Positions 2,982 through 29,687 of a DNA stretch of 29,687 bases are shown here, piece by piece. This stretch comes from a virus: the IMG/VR virus record IMGVR_UViG_3300043425_000189, positions 1-29,687 of that record. One strand, written 5' to 3'. Within the stretch, counting starts at the first letter, position 1; each line of letters opens with the position of its first letter. The translations under genes and the position numbers were made by a program. A model generated the notes under the pieces. The model had not been told where the DNA came from. It worked only from the letters and a program-made list of their open reading frames with translations, and did not search any database.

Positions 2982-3095
2982 CTAGTGTATTAAATTGTTT
3001 ATCATTGCCTGCCATCCTTCTGATAATTCTCGGCTGGAGAACATTACGGCTGCTGCTCCCATTCCTGCCATGAAGTATAAAACCTTGTTTTTCAT
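2982..3095 (-). CDS. tiny hydrophobic protein (37 aa)
   Basis: This frame encodes 37 residues with one hydrophobic stretch (VLYFMAGMGAAAVMF, residues 5-19) after a short basic N-terminus (MKNK), so an inner-membrane peptide is possible. Its ATG overlaps the TGA of the exonuclease gene as ATGA (3092-3095), the same 4-base coupling used elsewhere in this genome. That coupling is the main support for it. The function is unknown. Confidence 0.5.
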   Translation of the reverse strand: MKNKVLYFMAGMGAAAVMFSSRELSEGWQAMINNLIH

Positions 3096-3784
3096 TTTCC
3101 GATTTTTAATCCGTTGTAATACTCTCTGCATAATTCTATGCGCTCCTTGATTCTCTGGATAACATCCTCATCCTTCTCGATTAAAAATCTGCGTACACGG
3201 TCCTCCTTGGGGATGTGATCAAAGTTATGCTTTGCTCTCACGTACTCCTCGATATCTGGATCTTCATCGATTGCGTTCTGCTTCCAGTTCTCTCTCCTGA
3301 TCTCATCCAGAACCATTAGCTCTGGTGTATTCACAAGGCAAAAAACAAGCTCGCTCACTTCGATTCCAGAAAGCCACATATAACCTTGCAGCTGGTAAAA
3401 ATAAATGTTTGGTATGTCATCCGTAAACCATGGGAAGGTGTTTGCATCGTAGCTGCATTTAATGTCCGCTAGAAGTCCGTTTGTGCAGATGTCTGTTCTA
3501 CCTGTCACGTATTCATTTTCGAACGTCTCCTGTCCTCCCTGTTCGATGTAGTGGAAAGGTAAACCCCAGCCCAGTACTTCATTGGCCAGTGCTATGCCAT
3601 CCTTCTCGCATTGAATTCCTTTGTCGGTATACCTGCTCCAGAAATCTTTTTTAATGCCGTAGTTATTTTCGAGGTATAATTCGTGGAGATAATTTTTCGC
3701 AGTTTGGGAGAGAATCTCTCCCTTGCTGCGTGGGTTCGTCATAATGTCTCCGAGCTTGGAGCATCTGATTTTAATATTTGTCAT
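3092..3784 (-). CDS. YqaJ/RecB-like recombination exonuclease
   Basis: The product has 230 residues and resembles PD-(D/E)XK exonucleases of phage recombination systems (YqaJ/lambda-exo superfamily). Candidate catalytic residues are Glu60 in the helix QCEKDGIALANE, Asp98 in GRTDIC, and Asp107/Lys109 in ADIKC, the order and spacing of the fold. Such enzymes degrade one strand of duplex DNA to produce 3' tails for a single-strand annealing protein. It sits just downstream of the ERF-type annealing protein with one small gene between, and is coupled to both neighbours by ATGA overlaps at 3781-3784 and 3092-3095. A RecB-like nuclease for DNA processing is the alternative. Confidence 0.8.
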   Translation of the reverse strand: MTNIKIRCSKLGDIMTNPRSKGEILSQTAKNYLHELYLENNYGIKKDFWSRYTDKGIQCEKDGIALANEVLGWGLPFHYIEQGGQETFENEYVTGRTDICTNGLLADIKCSYDANTFPWFTDDIPNIYFYQLQGYMWLSGIEVSELVFCLVNTPELMVLDEIRRENWKQNAIDEDPDIEEYVRAKHNFDHIPKEDRVRRFLIEKDEDVIQRIKERIELCREYYNGLKIGK

Positions 3785-4110
3785 TGCTCCTCCCAGTTTA
3801 GTTTAAGAATTTTGTATCCTTTCTCCTTGAGGTATTGGATGCACTCTTGTTCGTATGTTAATTCAGGAACTGTATCAAAAATTATTTCATCAACTCTTTC
3901 AATTGGTTGATATACTTTAACATCTTTCTTAATCCATGATCTAGTTCCTTCTATGATATTTGCATGAATATAAAGAAATGAAGTTGGTATTCCTTTTTTA
4001 ACAATATCTGGATCAATTCCATATTCAATACATTTTTTACAGAATTGTTTACCTGAAAATGTGCTTGGCATTTCATCTAATAGCGAAATTAATTGTGGTT
4101 CGTAACTCAT
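3781..4110 (-). CDS. hypothetical protein between ERF and exonuclease
   Basis: The product has 109 residues and no function I recognise. The first part (MPSTFSGKQFCKKCIEYGID) reads like a small helical domain of the type seen in DNA-binding proteins. The C-terminus (CIQYLKEKGYKILKLNW) has a helix-then-strand pattern common in small phage proteins. It is visibly more A+T-rich than the exonuclease gene. Both ends overlap neighbours by 4 bases, so it is translated together with the recombination pair and could be an accessory to it. Confidence 0.65.
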   Translation of the reverse strand: MSYEPQLISLLDEMPSTFSGKQFCKKCIEYGIDPDIVKKGIPTSFLYIHANIIEGTRSWIKKDVKVYQPIERVDEIIFDTVPELTYEQECIQYLKEKGYKILKLNWEEQ

Positions 4111-4691
4111 AGTTCGTTTAATTTAAGTTTTTGGGTTGTAGTTAAAAGGTAATTCTGGAGAAGTTCCTCCTTGGTGTATTTGCCTGTTTTGATCGCTTCG
4201 ATTGCATTATCAAATCTTTCGTTTGAAAGTCCATCTAGATTCTTTGATGGTGCTGTTTGTTCTCCTCCTGCATCCAAGTCCTTATCTGTAACAAGGCCCA
4301 AAATCGAAGCCAAACTGTACCTTCTGAAGTAGGTAACAGCAGAACCATAAACTTGAAACTCATTCATTCCTTTGAGCTGCACTCCCTGTGGTATTCTGGT
4401 GATTGATTCCACCTGCTCTCCTGTTTCTGTGTGAAAGATGATCGTCTGGATGCTGTCTCCTTGTAGTGGCTGGATAAACCCTAGATTGTGTTTTTTAAGA
4501 TAAGGTGTAATTACTTGGAGCACTTTTGAAATGTCCGCATAGGTGTATCCGTATCCTTGCGTTGCTTTGTGGATGATTGGTACATCCTGCTGGAAGTCTG
4601 CAATTGCTTTCCAGATAGTTGTCGGTGTTTTTGGCTCTTTGCCTTGCACCTCATCGAGTTTGACCTCGGCTGCTTGTTTGGTTGTTCTCAT
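4107..4691 (-). CDS. erf: ERF-family single-strand annealing protein
   Basis: The product has 194 residues and matches the ERF superfamily of phage single-strand annealing proteins. The family signature GSAVTYFRRYSLASILGL is at 116-133, followed by an acidic TDKDLDAG segment, and the N-terminal GYGYTYADISKVLQVITPYL fits the family core. These proteins coat single-stranded DNA and anneal complementary strands during phage recombination and genome circularisation or concatemer formation. The ATG at 4691 lies 23 bases downstream of a clear promoter element at 4715-4722, so this is the first gene of a unit running to the terminator at 2521-2564. The exonuclease partner is two genes downstream. 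Confidence 0.9.
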   Translation of the reverse strand: MRTTKQAAEVKLDEVQGKEPKTPTTIWKAIADFQQDVPIIHKATQGYGYTYADISKVLQVITPYLKKHNLGFIQPLQGDSIQTIIFHTETGEQVESITRIPQGVQLKGMNEFQVYGSAVTYFRRYSLASILGLVTDKDLDAGGEQTAPSKNLDGLSNERFDNAIEAIKTGKYTKEELLQNYLLTTTQKLKLNEL

Positions 4692-6189: not shown

Positions 6190-6383
6190 AGCTGTTCGAT
6201 TTCGTTTTTTACTTGTTGCCAATATTCAAGTTGTTTTTGGTAACCATAAGCTAAATGAAATCTGATCTGGTGCATCATTTCATCTACTGTAATTAAAGCG
6301 CATTGTTTTATTTCAATTGACATTAATCCAGTGGGTAAATTAAACTTGTCCAATAGTTCTTCTGCTTTTTCTTTTGGTGTCAT
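6186..6383 (-). CDS. small helical protein, MTPxxKAxEL family, copy 2
   Basis: The product has 65 residues, the shorter paralog of 5320-5577. It has the same layout: MTPKEKAEELLDKFNL, a central CALITVDEM segment, and the C-terminal YWQQVKNEIEQL helix. Both copies sit directly in front of a QAKEMEK-family gene or the membrane peptide, within the same coupled cassette. No enzymatic motif is visible and no function is known. Confidence 0.6.
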   Translation of the reverse strand: MTPKEKAEELLDKFNLPTGLMSIEIKQCALITVDEMMHQIRFHLAYGYQKQLEYWQQVKNEIEQL

Positions 6384-6532
6384 AGCTGTTCGATTTTTTT
6401 AATTAGTGGTGGATAAAGGTCTGCTCTCTTTCTGGCATCTTCAATTGAAACGGCATGCACCGTTTTGAAGGTAAGAGTCCACCTTGCTTTGGGGGTTGCT
6501 CTGTGCATGTAGGTTACTTTGTATGTTCTCAT
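6380..6532 (-). CDS. MRTYxVTY small protein, copy 1
   Basis: The product has 50 residues (MRTYKVTYMHRATPKARW, then a helix with EDARKRADLYPP and IKKIEQL). It is related in design to 9796-9969, which starts MRTYHITYFIHRG: a strand, a charged turn, a helix and a final strand ending in (E)QL or VEL. The ATG at 6532 is chosen because the promoter at 6537-6557 lies directly upstream; a longer frame from 6589 would include the promoter. It is the first gene of the ATGA-coupled cassette that runs to 4727. Confidence 0.65.
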   Translation of the reverse strand: MRTYKVTYMHRATPKARWTLTFKTVHAVSIEDARKRADLYPPLIKKIEQL

Positions 6533-9564: not shown

Positions 9565-9799
9565 CTTGATCTCCTATTTTATACCAGTCAATATATACAC
9601 TTTCATAGTCATGGTTTAGTTTGTGCTTTCCGTGAATGTATCCGTTATTGTATGCCCATTGCTGGTGGTTCTTCTCCTGCTTCATGAAAATCTCCAGCCA
9701 TTGTTCTTTTAATTCTGGGCGCATGTTTTTGAAGTCGAACTCCTGCATGGTTTCGAACATGTGCGCTACTGGTGTCTGGGGTGTTTTTTTTGTGCTCAT
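9551..9799 (-). CDS. small hypothetical protein (82 aa)
   Basis: The product has 82 residues, begins MSTKKTPQTPVAHMFETMQE and is helical and aromatic-rich toward the middle (WLEIFMKQEKNHQQWAYNNG). I do not recognise it. It overlaps copy 4 of the QAKEMEK family by 14 bases and the MRTY-type gene by 4 bases (ATGA), so it belongs to the same transcript. Confidence 0.55.
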   Translation of the reverse strand: MSTKKTPQTPVAHMFETMQEFDFKNMRPELKEQWLEIFMKQEKNHQQWAYNNGYIHGKHKLNHDYESVYIDWYKIGDQDESK

Positions 9800-9969
9800 A
9801 ATTCTACGATGTATTTGATTTCTGATTCCTGTACTTTGTTCTCATTTAGAAATCGACCTATTGCTAGTATGATCGACTCCGCTTCTAGTGTTACTCCTCC
9901 GAGTAGTGGTTTTTCGTTTTGTTCTACGTCTCCTCTGTGGATGAAGTAGGTGATGTGGTATGTTCTCAT
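9796..9969 (-). CDS. MRTYxxTY small protein, copy 2
   Basis: The product has 57 residues (MRTYHITYFIHRGDVEQNEK, then a strand and a helix ending IKYIVEL). It has the same plan as 6380-6532: MRTY-strand, charged turn, helix, final strand. The ATG at 9969 is chosen to match that homologue and because upstream sequence is A-rich leader; a longer frame reaching 10158 runs through the zinc-cluster gene. Function is unknown. Confidence 0.6.
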   Translation of the reverse strand: MRTYHITYFIHRGDVEQNEKPLLGGVTLEAESIILAIGRFLNENKVQESEIKYIVEL

Positions 9970-9979
9970 TTGTTCTGGT

Positions 9980-10168
9980 TTAATTTTCATCGTCATTGTA
10001 ATCCTCATCCTCTTCTGTAAAGCTGCCAGTGCCATTGCACTCTTCGCATTCAACGGTCCTGTAGCATCCTCCGCAGCACATCGATGCTGGCTTAAGGCAT
10101 TCTGGTCCGACTTCGATGTAACCTTCTCCTTCGCATTCTGGGCAGGTCCTTGTAACATAGTGTTTCAT
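9980..10168 (-). CDS. small DnaJ-type zinc-cluster protein
   Basis: The product has 62 residues with two CxxCxGxG elements of the DnaJ zinc-finger kind: CPECEGEG at 9-16 and CEECNGTG at 41-48, plus further Cys residues between them. The tail is acidic (EEDEDYNDDEN). It probably folds around one or two zinc ions; proteins like this are frequent in Bacteroidota phages, with no assigned job. A 13-base TTTTAACCTTAAA element lies just upstream of its ATG and recurs before the gene at 4727-5155. Confidence 0.7.
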   Translation of the reverse strand: MKHYVTRTCPECEGEGYIEVGPECLKPASMCCGGCYRTVECEECNGTGSFTEEDEDYNDDEN

Positions 10169-10225
10169 TTTGTTTTTGTTTAAGGTTAAAAAAATATGCG
10201 TTGAAAAGTCGCACCCCTTTGGTTT

Positions 10226-10414
10226 TTATAATCTCTTCAACATAAAATTTTGGATCTCTTCAAAAGTTCTTAAATCAACGTACCAGAAAGCATCATCTAA
10301 AGTTCTAGCAATCTTTTGTCTTTCTCCGTTCTCCTGCAATGGTATTGCTTCGATAATTGAGTGCAATTGTTCAGTTGTGGTTGCGTTTTCGATTTGTTCT
10401 TTAAGCGTTTTCAT
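10226..10414 (-). CDS. small helical protein (62 aa), first gene of its unit
   Basis: The product has 62 residues, MKTLKEQIENATTTEQLHSI and a second helical half ending FEEIQNFMLKRL. I do not recognise it. The ATG at 10414 is chosen over one at 10459, because the promoter element at 10431-10446 lies between them. It is the first gene after the promoter, about 57 bases before the zinc-cluster gene; that gap (10169-10225) contains a T-rich stretch but no clear hairpin. Confidence 0.6.
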   Translation of the reverse strand: MKTLKEQIENATTTEQLHSIIEAIPLQENGERQKIARTLDDAFWYVDLRTFEEIQNFMLKRL

Positions 10415-15640: not shown

Positions 15641-15672
15641 AAACAATTAACTAGAAATTGGTGGTTTGTTCC

Positions 15673-15703
15673 AAAAAAAAAGGAGAAAGCCGTAGCTCTC
15701 TCC
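15673..15703 (-). terminator. intrinsic terminator with TACG tetraloop
   Basis: On the minus strand a 9-bp stem (15703-15695 with 15690-15682, one G-U pair) closes a TACG loop and is followed by nine T (15681-15673). It follows the gene at 15728-16267 and precedes the start at 15640 by 33 bases. It would reduce expression of portal and lysis genes relative to the capsid unless read through. Confidence 0.9.
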
Positions 15704-15727
15704 CTCTCCGTTTATACATGGCAGGTA

Positions 15728-16267
15728 TTATGCTGTAATGATATCTGCTCCTGCGAAAACCGCAGCGAGGTCTGTTTCATTATCACAATCTAGGAAATTG
15801 GCAGGCCCATTCTCCATGGCCGTGAAGGTCAAATTATAACCATTGAAGTCACCCAAGTTTGTACCACTTGAGATAGTTCCTGCTGTCATGTCTGCTCCTC
15901 TTTCAAGTCCTACAATGAAGAATTGAAGTGATCGCGTGCGAACAACAATGTGCGGTCTCCCATAAGCCAAAAGTTTGACTGTTTTGTGTGTTGGGATGTC
16001 CTGTTTTTTTAATTGGGCAACCACCACCTGCTCAAAGTAGGTAGTTCCATTATCGCGAGATGTCTGGATTGTCTGCTCGAATGAGTTTGCTCCTTTCAGC
16101 TCGTATTTGTATAGTTCTGTGATTCCAGTCACTGCTGTAACAACTCCATCCACATCTGTGGTGACGTTCTCTGGTGCAATGCCGTAATTAATGAAGTAGA
16201 TAGCATCAAGTCCAGAAACTGAATCCTTGCATGTCTCTAATCTTCCGTGTGAAATATCGCAGGCCAT
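15728..16267 (-). CDS. structural protein, possible tail-tube or head-associated
   Basis: The product has 179 residues: MACDISHGRLETCKDSVSGL, later NSFEQTIQTSRDNGTTYFEQ, YGRPHIVVRTR and GYNLTFTAMENGPANF. This family is common in Bacteroidota phages directly after the major capsid gene, and is a likely abundant virion protein (tail tube or head decoration). A 14-base leader ending at its start codon (CAAAGACAAATGGC) is identical in the capsid gene leader. A terminator (16288-16322) separates it from the capsid gene. Confidence 0.7.
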   Translation of the reverse strand: MACDISHGRLETCKDSVSGLDAIYFINYGIAPENVTTDVDGVVTAVTGITELYKYELKGANSFEQTIQTSRDNGTTYFEQVVVAQLKKQDIPTHKTVKLLAYGRPHIVVRTRSLQFFIVGLERGADMTAGTISSGTNLGDFNGYNLTFTAMENGPANFLDCDNETDLAAVFAGADIITA

Positions 16268-16339: not shown

Positions 16340-17290
16340 TTAGTCGATGAAGTAAACAACGCAATCCTCCAAGATGCCGATTTGAGTACCTGCTGTGAAT
16401 CGCATTACAAAACGAACATTTTGTGATCCATCGATGTTTGCCATGTCGATGATTTTCACCTCTTGGCTGTCATTCAACAATCCTGTTCCGAAGTACAAGT
16501 TATCTGAAGTTGTAGCCAACATCTCATTGTTCTGCAATCCGTTTGCTACGAAAACTGGAACTCCATCGAAAGACAAGCCAGCTCCTGCTCCGTACCATTG
16601 CGTTCCTTGAGCGTTTGTTCCTGCACCACCAACTCCTGCTGCTGCAAATCCACCCAATGCGCGAACGTATGCACGTGCTACATTTTGTGAAACATAAAGT
16701 TTCAAACCTTCCTTACCGTAAAGGCGAGCAGGGATTGCATCAACCACTTTGCCCATCTCCGCGATAACGTTTGAAGCAGTAATGGCAGTACCTCCTACAA
16801 CTTGTCCTGCAGGAATTCCTGTTCCTGCTTCTGCGATTGCCTGTGTGAAGATTCCTGTGAATTCTCCATTGTTTGCATTCGCTCCATGCCAGATGTTATT
16901 TTCTGTAGCTTCTGCTACTTGACCTAGCATTCGTGCCAAAAGGAAATCCTGAAAAGATTTAGGAAGTACATCGTATGCGCTGTAGCCCATTTCGATTGCG
17001 TTCCAATCCGAGCGGAAATCTTTTTTACAAAGAAGAACGTTAACGTCTAGCTCCTTTGGCTCGATTACTCGCTCCGTTAATGTGATTGTGCTGGATGCAG
17101 TGAAGTCGCATGAAGCATCTTTCAAAAGGTCCGAGCTATCGAAACGTTTGATCGTAGAACGAAACTTGATGTTAGGCATCACCTGAACTCCTCCGTTCTC
17201 GATGGTGTTTGCAGAAAGCAATGCAGCACCGATATATTTACCTGCTGATTCTCCTGCGTAAGTTGTTGTAATGTCTAATGTTGTAGCCAT
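16340..17290 (-). CDS. major capsid protein (HK97 fold)
   Basis: The product has 316 residues and is the best candidate for the major capsid protein. It has an N-arm (about 1-60), an E-loop-like region with FRSTIKRFDSSDLLKD, a P-domain with a long helix region around AYDVLPKSFQDFLLARML, and a Gly/Ala-rich A-domain segment (ALGGFAAAGVGGAGTNAQG) before the C-terminal strands (IGILEDCVVYF). It follows a scaffold-like gene and precedes a terminator, as expected for the most expressed gene. The protease upstream suggests maturation cleavage. Confidence 0.88.
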   Translation of the reverse strand: MATTLDITTTYAGESAGKYIGAALLSANTIENGGVQVMPNIKFRSTIKRFDSSDLLKDASCDFTASSTITLTERVIEPKELDVNVLLCKKDFRSDWNAIEMGYSAYDVLPKSFQDFLLARMLGQVAEATENNIWHGANANNGEFTGIFTQAIAEAGTGIPAGQVVGGTAITASNVIAEMGKVVDAIPARLYGKEGLKLYVSQNVARAYVRALGGFAAAGVGGAGTNAQGTQWYGAGAGLSFDGVPVFVANGLQNNEMLATTSDNLYFGTGLLNDSQEVKIIDMANIDGSQNVRFVMRFTAGTQIGILEDCVVYFID

Positions 17291-26609: not shown

Positions 26610-26884
26610 ATTTTGGCTCTTCGTCTTATTTCGTTTACTTCTATCTGGTTCTTTTGCTTCTCAAATGTTAAGAATGTGAATGCGTGATGAATGGTAAGTC
26701 TAGTGACCTCATCGAACTTTGTAACATCTCCCTTTGCAGCTGCATATATTGATGAATACCAGCCCCATCGTTGGTTAAATTGAGCTCTTTCGCTATAATC
26801 TGTAGTTCCTCCTTGCTCATCTCCTTCATCTGCTCCTGTAAAAAGTTCATCGTAGCGTCTAGTAATTCCGTTCCTAAATTCCAA
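26606..26884 (-). CDS. tail-assembly chaperone T-like frame, by -1 frameshift
   Basis: This frame has no good start of its own (first codon TTG at 26884) and lies in the -1 frame relative to 26668-27375, overlapping it by 217 bases. Translation continuing after a -1 slip on the T9 run at 26883-26891 would give Leu-Glu-Phe-Arg and then this segment. It ends with a Trp-containing helix (FNQRWGWYSSIYAAAKGD) and a charged tail. The fusion would be about 256 residues, as in lambda gpG-T. See findings for the site. Confidence 0.7.
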   Translation of the reverse strand: MEFRNGITRRYDELFTGADEGDEQGGTTDYSERAQFNQRWGWYSSIYAAAKGDVTKFDEVTRLTIHHAFTFLTFEKQKNQIEVNEIRRRAKI

Positions 26885-27375
26885 AAAAAAACATTCGCGG
26901 AGATTGCTACGTTCAAAGGCATCGCTTTCATGACCTCGCTGTAGTTGATGCTGGATTCGTACTCTTCTATCTGGTATCGTTTTCCTTTACTTTTTGTGAT
27001 CGGGCGGAATAGAACAGCCATTGCGTTGTTCATCGTTTGCCAGTCGCTCATGTACTTCTCGGCATCCATGTATTCTCCCCAGCTCATGGTTTCTAGTGAT
27101 GGAATAAAACCGAACTCCCTACCTCCAAGTTTGAAGCGGTGGATAAGGTCCTGCTCGTAGCTGGAGAACATTTTATTAAATCTTTCGAGCAATTCCATTA
27201 TGGAGTTCCTTTCAATTTTCACTACTGCTGAAAGTGGTATTTTGCACAGCACCGATATCATTTTTCTGGCTTGCGTATCCTCATCGTCTTTTGCGCTGGT
27301 AATTTTCATCAGGTACTGGTATTGTTCCAGTGTGATCTCCGATAGTGATGTGGGAATGTAGATTTTCGCTTCCAT
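26668..27375 (-). CDS. tail assembly chaperone, G-like protein
   Basis: The product has 235 residues, helical and charged, with MEAKIYIPTSLSEITLEQYQ at the start and FFWNLGTELLDATMNFLQEQ near residue 163-182. Its position before the tail genes and the -1 frame overlap with the next frame follow the lambda G/GT arrangement. The zero-frame protein ends at 26668; the fusion arises from slippage at residues 162-164. Such chaperones bind the tape measure during tail assembly. Confidence 0.7.
   Translation of the reverse strand: MEAKIYIPTSLSEITLEQYQYLMKITSAKDDEDTQARKMISVLCKIPLSAVVKIERNSIMELLERFNKMFSSYEQDLIHRFKLGGREFGFIPSLETMSWGEYMDAEKYMSDWQTMNNAMAVLFRPITKSKGKRYQIEEYESSINYSEVMKAMPLNVAISANVFFWNLGTELLDATMNFLQEQMKEMSKEELQIIAKELNLTNDGAGIHQYMQLQREMLQSSMRSLDLPFITHSHS
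26883..26891 (-). other. slippery T9 run, putative -1 frameshift site
   Basis: Nine consecutive T (minus strand) form the heptamer T TTT TTT in the correct zero frame (Val162-Phe163-Phe164-Trp165 = GTT TTT TTT TGG). A -1 slip reads TTG next and enters the overlapping frame exactly at its first codon. No stimulatory hairpin was verified. Confidence 0.65.
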
Positions 27376-27390
27376 GTCTTTATAACTTGT

Positions 27391-27422
27391 TTTGGTTTAT
27401 TTGTATGCGATTGGTATATTTG
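27391..27422 (+). promoter_or_regulatory. plus-strand promoter in the terL-tail gap
   Basis: TTTG at 27391-27394, a 20-base spacer and TATATTTG at 27415-27422 match the Bacteroidota consensus (TTTG, 19-21 bases, TAnnTTTG) on the strand opposite to all genes. A terminator follows at 27461-27490. This is the best -33/-7 pair in the window. Confidence 0.65.
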
Positions 27423-27427
27423 TCCAG

Positions 27428-27490
27428 CTTGTTCTCAAAGCATAGTTTAGTTTATAGGTTAAAGGGGGTTCTTTGGAGCTCCCTTTTTTT
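27428..27490 (+). ncRNA. candidate antisense small RNA (about 63 nt)
   Basis: A transcript from the plus-strand promoter would start near 27428 and end in the T-run at 27484-27490. It contains no coding frame of note, is antisense to the terL-chaperone intergenic message and reaches the terL stop codon. Expression is unproven. Confidence 0.5.
27461..27490 (+). terminator. plus-strand intrinsic terminator
   Basis: AAAGGGGGTTC (27461-27471) pairs with GAGCTCCCTTT (27476-27486) in an 11-bp stem with two G-U pairs and a TTTG loop, and the T-run continues to 27490. On the minus strand the hairpin is followed by AACC, so the terminator polarity is plus. Confidence 0.75.
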
Positions 27491-28634
27491 ATCGAACGTG
27501 ATACTTTCCTCTGTTTGGGTTGCTCACTGCCATGTAGATAAAATATCTGGCTGCATCGATGCAGTGATTCCACTCATCCTTTGGTATGCTCTTGTTGGTT
27601 TTTTCAACCCATGAATAATTGTTGAATTCCTTTATCATGTTCTTTGAGTCTTTATCCAGAATAATCTGGTATTCGTTCATCAAAGATATTCCTGCTGTAA
27701 CGCTGCCTGCTCCTTTCTCCGCTTCCATGATGTTTAAACCTCTTTGTCGGAGCTCTGATATCAACCTTGGCTCTGCGCTGTCTCCTATGATAAGTAAACG
27801 GTCCGCATGTTCCTTCGTGTATTGGTATAATTGTCCTGTGTTTAGTCCTTGCTCATAGAAGCATTCCTTCAAGTAGATGATTTTTTCCTTTCGTTTAATC
27901 GATACCTTGATTAAGGTAGATGGATCATTGCTGAAGCCGTAGTCCTGTCCGAAACCGACAATGTCTCCATCCTGATATTCTCCTATGCTCCAATTGGAGA
28001 AGATTGCACCTGTTGGTTGCGCTCTTTCTCCTGTTCCATAAACTTTCCACCAGTAGGCATTCGTTACTTTGCTTTCAATGTCATCTACCTGCGCTCTGGT
28101 GAGGTGAGGATTGTCTTTGTAGGTTGTAATGAAAGGAGGGAACTTCTCGATGTATTTGTCCAGCCAGTGCTCCTGTGGAAGTGCTGGATTGTAATCTGCA
28201 ATTATGCGGTATCTGGTCCTTGGGAATAATTGGTCGATTGTTTCCTCTGGGAACTGGTGAGCTTCGTTAATCCACAGTATATCTCTGGACCGACCATGTA
28301 TTTTATCTGGGGTGTCTGCTCCGTAGTAAGAAATGTAGTTTCCGAATAAATTATAGATGTGATCGGTTTTATTATGGTTCTCATCTCTGTACAAGTCATG
28401 CTTGATTAAAATGTCTTTGATGTCTTTCCAAGCGGTAGATTTTAATGCGGTGTAGGTGTCGCGCACTATATCGATCTCCATTCCTGCATTCTCATATTCC
28501 TTGCATAGCCATAAAATATAATAAGCTACGGAGTAGGTCTTTCCGCTTCGCGTTCCTCCTTGCAGAAGTGTAAACCGATTATCTGGAACTGATCGCTTGA
28601 GGAATGTAAAGTTAGGATTTGCTTTCTGCATCAT
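27489..28634 (-). CDS. terL: terminase large subunit
   Basis: The product has 381 residues and combines the ATPase and nuclease domains of the packaging motor. Walker A is GGTRSGKT at 26-33, Walker B is ILWINEA at 119-125 with the catalytic Glu, and nuclease Asp residues are D231 (GQDYGFSND), D285 (IIGDSAEP) and D360 (NHCIDAARY). It resembles the PBSX-type (Terminase_3) family. It would cut and pump DNA through the portal. The ATG overlaps the small subunit end by 23 bases. The length is on the short side for TerL but covers all motifs. Confidence 0.93.
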   Translation of the reverse strand: MMQKANPNFTFLKRSVPDNRFTLLQGGTRSGKTYSVAYYILWLCKEYENAGMEIDIVRDTYTALKSTAWKDIKDILIKHDLYRDENHNKTDHIYNLFGNYISYYGADTPDKIHGRSRDILWINEAHQFPEETIDQLFPRTRYRIIADYNPALPQEHWLDKYIEKFPPFITTYKDNPHLTRAQVDDIESKVTNAYWWKVYGTGERAQPTGAIFSNWSIGEYQDGDIVGFGQDYGFSNDPSTLIKVSIKRKEKIIYLKECFYEQGLNTGQLYQYTKEHADRLLIIGDSAEPRLISELRQRGLNIMEAEKGAGSVTAGISLMNEYQIILDKDSKNMIKEFNNYSWVEKTNKSIPKDEWNHCIDAARYFIYMAVSNPNRGKYHVR

Positions 28635-28962: not shown

Positions 28963-29687
28963 TTATTTCGCTTCTGGTTCTGTAGGCAGAATGTACTCCT
29001 CTCCGTTTCTTTTAATCTTCAAGTCTGGATCTAGTTTAATCATTCGTTCCAGAATCACTTGGCAATATCGAGGATCTAGTTCCAAGCCATAACACCTTCT
29101 GTTTAATTGGTGAGCTGCTACCATTGTTGAACCGCTCCCTAGGAATGCATCGCCTACTATTTCATTCTCTTTGCTGCTGTTCTCGATTAAAGGTGCAAGC
29201 AGGAGGATTGGTTTCATTGTTGGGTGTATGTCATTCTTTACTGGTTTGTCTGCTCGGAGAATTGTTGTTTTGACATCCTCTGATAACATCTCTGTGAGCA
29301 TCTTTTGGAGTTCGATTTTGCTTAATTTTTTAATGTCGATTTTGTCCTCGATGACTGTTGTTCTGGTTCTATCATTTCCGAAGTAGTGAGCTGCTCCTGC
29401 TTTCCATCCATATAGGCATGGTTCGTGTTTCCACTGGTAGTCTTGCCTACCCATCACTAAACTATTTTTTACCCAGATAAGGCATTGCTTCACTAAAAGT
29501 CCAGAGTCCTGCATCGCTCTCCTGAAGTTTGCACCTTCGATATCTGCATGCCATACATACCACGCTCCTCCTTTCTTTGTGTATGCTCCAAGTGCTGTAT
29601 AGAAATCGTACAGGAATTGATAAAATGCAGAGTCTCCCATGCTGTCATTCATGATCGTTAATGCTTCCTTCGTTTCTCCTTGGTAAT
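28963..29687 (-). CDS. ParB-domain DNA methyltransferase, C-terminal part
   Basis: This is the remaining part of the gene that starts at 710, in frame across the terminal repeat (the last 139 bases duplicate 1-139). The SAM-binding motif FLGSGS corresponds to residues 372-377 of the full protein, followed by AAHQLNRRCYGLELDPRYC. It carries Glu at the mismatch position 29675, where the left copy has Gly195. The stop lies 18 bases before the small terminase gene. Confidence 0.9.
   Translation of the reverse strand, partial: YQGETKEALTIMNDSMGDSAFYQFLYDFYTALGAYTKKGGAWYVWHADIEGANFRRAMQDSGLLVKQCLIWVKNSLVMGRQDYQWKHEPCLYGWKAGAAHYFGNDRTRTTVIEDKIDIKKLSKIELQKMLTEMLSEDVKTTILRADKPVKNDIHPTMKPILLLAPLIENSSKENEIVGDAFLGSGSTMVAAHQLNRRCYGLELDPRYCQVILERMIKLDPDLKIKRNGEEYILPTEPEAK
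29549..29687. repeat. terminal direct repeat, right copy
   Basis: This is the right copy of the 139-base repeat described at 1-139, with one mismatch at 29675. Removing one copy gives a unique circular length of 29,548 bases. Confidence 0.95.

Follow-up and report, generated by a model that had tools for sequence, protein, structure and literature searches.

What could a promoter and a terminator on the plus strand be doing in a gap whose flanking genes are both read from the minus strand? The window, by which we mean the whole stretch of 29,687 bases of the virus record analysed here, hosts such a candidate small-RNA cassette in the 113 bases (27376-27488) between terL (27489-28634, minus strand; phrog_2, 2e-40; stop codon at 27489-27491) and a gene of no known function (26668-27375, minus strand; phrog_32199), which a sequence-only reading had called a tail gene, a label that we find unsupported. 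That reading gave the length of the gap correctly and described in it a perfect plus-strand TTTG-N20-TATATTTG promoter, which is present at 27391-27422, followed by an 11-bp hairpin with a seven-base T-run of plus polarity, which is present at 27461-27490. The -33 element TTTG (27391-27394) is separated by exactly 20 bases from the -7 element TATATTTG (27415-27422), which is of the sigma-ABfr type, TAnnTTTG. The primary sigma factor of Bacteroides has this consensus, with a TTTG near -33, while in Flavobacterium johnsoniae the -7 part alone was confirmed (PMC7366714). The positions of promoter and terminator predict an RNA of about 61-64 nt (27428-27490), in agreement with the earlier estimate of about 63 nt. 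Between the -7 box and the hairpin lie 38 bases that include a first seed, UUGUUCUCA (27429-27437), complementary to (A)UGAGAACAA at start codons; a second seed, UUUAGUUUAUA (27446-27456), the complement of the leader UAUAAAUUAAA with one G-U pair; and a UAGGUU core (27455-27460) that is retained across the wider family described below. The intrinsic terminator (27461-27490) consists of a hairpin of 11 pairs, some of them G-U, with a four-base loop (27461-27486) and a run of seven U (T-run, 27484-27490). Elsewhere in the window, a DNA methyltransferase gene (28963-29652, minus strand; phrog_498, 5e-72) adjoins the packaging genes, and the gap that follows gene 15728-16267 contains a strong minus-strand intrinsic terminator (15647-15727; -16.8 kcal/mol, nine T), a likely transcription-unit end.

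Taken singly, the parts of the unit are at chance level: the TTTG-N20-TATATTTG string occurs once on the plus strand, with 1.4 expected, and the window has seven terminator-like sites, with nine expected. A promoter and a strong terminator in the right order and at the right distance occur once in the window and in none of 400 dinucleotide shuffles, both strands considered. None of 200 shuffles of the plus strand folds as well as the predicted RNA (z -3.6), whereas the minus strand has no folding excess over shuffles (z -0.26), and the terminator energy is -15.0 on the plus strand vs -7.3 on the minus strand; most of 13 relatives show the same clear advantage of the plus strand for the terminator. 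The terminator is clear, and the 5' part of the RNA is weakly folded, with a hairpin around GUUCUC in relatives L002, L037-L045 and L066, in which the first seed takes the form GUUCUCAU.

Relatives were collected by their TerL and the neighbouring protein, the motif not being used as a criterion. About 13 distinct relatives carry the cassette at the same site, in gaps of 106-134 bases (one contig ends inside the gap), and share the plus-strand -7 box (TATATTTG, TAAATTTG or TACCTTTG), an AGGU(U) motif and the terminator, whose sequence varies while its pairing is maintained. Conservation of both elements in relatives, which the sequence-only reading proposed as a check, holds for the -7 box and the terminator, but not throughout for the -33 TTTG. 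Alignments of the variable 5' part (MAFFT) were too poor for a covariance model. The TerL had no match in GTDB genomes, all named phages with a TerL match were less than 60% identical, and no homologous element was recovered when named phages were searched at the nucleotide level with the gap and three other elements. We consider it nearly certain that the gap downstream of terL contains a small RNA gene; good support for the predicted plus-strand RNA, with a promoter and a terminator of its own, comes from the polarity of the terminator, from conservation at the same site in the relatives and from the recurrence of the same layout elsewhere.

This layout, consisting of TATATTTG, a stretch complementary to start codons, (U)UUAGGUU and a terminator, turns up, in one orientation or the other, in Bacteroidota chromosomes and many unrelated viral contigs. 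Scanning viral contigs with the pattern TATATTTG N18-48 TTTAGGTT N12-42 T6 yielded at least 120 loci, mostly unrelated to the window. Among the matches listed, 86 of 123 loci and 27 of 53 sequence clusters were intergenic with a strong terminator, while under the same criteria a permuted core, TTTGGATT, gave 2 of 108 loci and 2 of 72 clusters (Fisher 1e-30 for loci and 1e-10 for clusters). A terminator also accompanied 16 of 49 listed chromosomal matches in Bacteroidota and allied groups, as assigned from record titles, vs 0 of 71 in others. The strict pattern is rare in chromosomes, being found in 2 of 148 genomes of the phylum, in one of which it resembles the element. The stretch before the core is enriched in CAT, the complement of AUG: of 36 clusters, 23 have TCAT between promoter and core (9.9 expected) and 13 have TCATA (2.2 expected). 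The core stays constant across the family while the seed varies. A large set of viral contigs (L170, L173, L174, L178, L187, L194, L205, L218, L221 and their kin), with 16 loci in one cluster, has a near-identical layout around an TTTAGGTT small RNA; one member, tested against named phages, had no nucleotide match.

The nearest known kind of RNA is the Bacteroides FopS/GibS group. FopS of B. thetaiotaomicron (RF04319; PMC11697453, PMC7366714) is about 65-70 nt long, a length similar to the 61-64 nt predicted here, and has a TAnnTTTG promoter (TATATTTG in the window), an AGGUU-containing stretch, a terminator and an open 5' part with a CAU-containing seed for start codons, as is predicted for the window RNA. 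It represses SusC messages by pairing at their start codons, an action opposed by RbpB (PMC11697453), and it is present in many copies per genome, some of them antisense to genes by position. GibS of Bacteroides thetaiotaomicron shares the start-codon mode that we predict for the window RNA. The differences are that the R1/R1' seed of FopS is UUUUUCAUGG, in place of GUUCUCA in the window, that the FopS core is UUUAAGGUUAA, in place of UAUAGGUUAA, and that the window RNA is phage-borne with phage early genes as its predicted targets, whereas FopS targets SusC transporters. RF04319 matches the window RNA weakly over its full length (27429-27493), beginning at the expected first base, with 14.2 bits against a cut-off of 56; we therefore suggest that the window RNA works like FopS, and do not call it FopS.

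When all start sites of the window were ranked against the open 5' part, the gene at 4107-4691 (minus strand) came first. It encodes an ERF-family single-stranded-DNA-annealing protein (PF04404, E 1.7e-22; phrog_155), lies near an exonuclease gene (3092-3784) and has a promoter box TATATTTG (4722-4715) and a short leader upstream. In the predicted duplex UUGUUCUCA pairs with UGAGAACAA at the ERF start codon and UUUAGUUUAUA with the leader UAUAAAUUAAA, at -18.8 to -22.6 kcal/mol according to which stretches are taken, these RNAduplex energies taking no account of accessibility. A second predicted target, a 50-aa ORF starting AUGAGAAC (6380-6532, minus strand; promoter box TATATTTG at 6557-6550), forms a duplex of -20.9 kcal/mol. 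Both classes are also among the best partners in two related lineages, and the ERF genes of G258 (the phage of L003) and of the G032 lineage (the phage of L037) likewise begin AUGAGAAC. Pairing of each RNA with its own ERF leader reaches -20.5 kcal/mol in the window, -21.1 in G258 and -23.1 in G032, and in none of the three did any of 3000 dinucleotide-shuffled RNAs do as well, although it should be noted that the ERF target was picked after viewing the duplex list. The ERF start site is best, tied or second-best in four related phages. More generally, the early TATATTTG..TATAA leaders that pair strongly (-19 to -23) all begin AUGAGAAC and belong to ERF genes and to ORFs of 50-55 aa (window 6557/6532, G258 16410, G032 10301 and 4491), while other early-type leaders of the same phages reach -8 to -14. 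In the G032 lineage, with AAAACCUAAAAAAUGAGAACA as the ERF leader and both UGUUCUCAU and UUUUAGGUUUU in the RNA, the core itself would be a seed. The window has seven occurrences of ATGAGAAC, all on the coding strand, vs 1.8 expected. ORFs of 50-55 aa beginning ATGAGAAC are located at 6380-6532 (minus strand) in the window and at 16378 in G258, 4467 and 10268 in G032 and 22211 in G058, the copies in the first three sitting behind early-type TATATTTG/TATATTCG..TATAA promoters; further ATGAGAAC sites within other genes or at their starts (window 9845, 9969 and 11750, minus strand) are kept in G258 (19696, 19820 and 21658, minus strand).

Across 18 small RNAs, start sites of the own phage were stronger pairing partners than foreign ones (mean rank 4.3 of 18; by permutation, p = 5e-5 when the top three sites are averaged and 0.002 when the best site is taken), in a measure of residual pairing that includes the related window and G258 and in which recurrence of a leader in one phage raises that phage's own score. 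In G020, which has a different small RNA (CAUCUUGU), pairing is best with early genes that begin ACAAGAUG. Against shuffled RNAs, the best duplex over all start sites had p 0.01-0.045 in the window and p 0.15-0.18 in G058. The ERF leaders of four relatives without the cassette (L674, L678, L680 and L681) pair with the window RNA about equally well (-18 to -22), so shared ancestry of the leaders explains part of the match and the pairing in the window and G258 is no proof of co-evolution; a clear preference for the own leader is found in the G032 lineage only. ERF as a universal target was rejected, as the RNAs of the cassette lineages L009, G020 and L041 do not pair with it.

Based on these results, we propose that the RNA probably silences early genes of its own phage in trans, including the two named here, by pairing at their start sites. 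Host RNA polymerase with the Bacteroidota primary sigma factor would start at about 27428 and stop near 27490, giving an RNA with the terminator as its 3' half and a 5' half that is open or shows GUUCUCA in the loop of a weak hairpin. GUUCUCA(U) would then pair across the AUG of messages beginning AUGAGAAC. A second stretch (UUUAGUUUAUA in the window, UUUUAGGUUU in the L037 lineage) would pair with the 5' leaders of these messages, which are very short, and together the two pairings would keep ribosomes from starting. The targets would be the ERF gene, which heads the recombination genes, and the 50-aa ORF, which heads a run of small genes. The likely effect would be to turn early genes down, perhaps when the structural genes come on, although this late timing is a guess, since the promoter of the small RNA resembles early promoters. 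VpdS of VP882 and PreS of lambda are also phage-encoded and act in trans by base pairing, as proposed here, but they use Hfq in Proteobacteria, and PreS acts on host dnaN (PMC12197685).

The likeness to FopS raises the alternative that the RNA acts on host messages, for instance those of SusC-type transporters, or on the host's own small-RNA control, hijacking the host network. The architecture and the predicted start-codon mode are alike, and the authors of the FopS study found a FopS copy in one Caudovirales phage (PMC11697453); true FopS sequences are also present in G001 and G006. In motif-bearing viral records RF04319 matched weakly but over its full length at 20 places with E <= 0.02, the best at 2.7e-6; two of these places are in the window or a relative, though outside the gap. 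A set of 50 control records gave no match at 0.05, but these records lacked terminators, which favours the test set, so the hairpin may account for part of the difference. Even the best-scoring member in viral contigs (L231, 37.5 bits) stays below the cut-off of 56, as do the in-place matches to the chromosomal members L448, L403, L441 and L481, and searching Rfam at gathering scores gave no match in the window and none at the elements of 14 other loci. Aligned to the phage spacers, the 5' part of FopS was significant in some clusters only (7 of 36, combined p 0.02). Against host targets speak the window seed, which is unlike the R1' seed of FopS, the low score of the window RNA, and the better fit of the seeds to start sites of their own phage than to those of other phages; we regard this alternative as unlikely. 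An RF04319 match at 10160-10228 (plus strand, 21.6 bits) was rejected as a second small RNA, having no promoter and a poor terminator; its minus strand reads as the leader UUAACCUUAAAC...AUG of gene 9796-10158, a target-like site.

The position of the unit suggests another possibility, put forward in the sequence-only reading, namely a cis-antisense RNA on the message of terL and the next gene that would tune packaging against tail proteins or affect decay of the long late transcript; lambda OOP and aQ would be comparable RNAs. The unit is indeed antisense to the intergenic part of this minus-strand message, but its overlap with terL is confined to the last 2-3 bases, so that the description "antisense to the terL 3' end" hardly applies. 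Phage RNAs of 68-220 nt (OOP 77, sar 68/69) control phage genes by base pairing, lambda OOP and aQ acting on the gene that they overlap and P22 sar on ant (PMC12197685), whereas the targets predicted for the window RNA are at other loci, about 21-23 kb away; the elements of the family run the same or the opposite way relative to neighbouring genes. Many relatives that share the gene order lack the cassette, their gaps being 15-43 bases long. On the TerL tree the cassette requires four gains or losses (3-5 in bootstraps), and L009 carries it while L031, L010 and L024, with near-identical TerLs, do not. The unit is thus an autonomous cassette, kept where present and dispensable to the terL/next-gene arrangement, which argues against a basic role in that message. 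With its conserved parts fitting start sites of the phage's own early genes elsewhere in the genome, we consider control of terL or the next gene by this RNA very improbable and its antisense position incidental.

We give equally little weight to the idea that the RNA is a sponge, in which the UUUAGGUU core would bind and titrate a host RRM protein such as RbpB. A constant core beside a variable seed would suit this idea, and RbpB binds FopS and GibS (PMC11697453); however, the window has the variant core UAUAGGUUAA, and conservation of the core may itself reflect pairing, since in the G032 lineage it is predicted to pair with the target leader (AAAACCUAAAA). Least credible of all is the absence of any regulator, with a promoter-terminator pair whose only effect is to block or disturb transcription through the gap: the promoter and the terminator do stand out as the strongest features, but the stretch that they enclose is both conserved and complementary to start sites.

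Bacteroidota phages are common, yet little has been published on the timing of their genes and hardly any of their RNAs have been described; the review of phage RNAs cited above (PMC12197685) contains no occurrence of a Bacteroides or Bacteroidota phage RNA. We put at even odds the broader proposition that these phages widely carry genes for small RNAs of ~60-80 nt, built on the FopS-type plan, gained and lost as cassettes and bearing seeds against their own early genes. If true, this would be a post-transcriptional shut-off of early genes, which is not known in Bacteroidota, and it would carry the plan of FopS beyond gut Bacteroides, to phages and to other host lineages. A class of RNAs that target the phage's own genes and have a recognisable promoter, core and terminator would make early-gene control directly testable, and may provide ready-made start-codon silencers for Bacteroidota.
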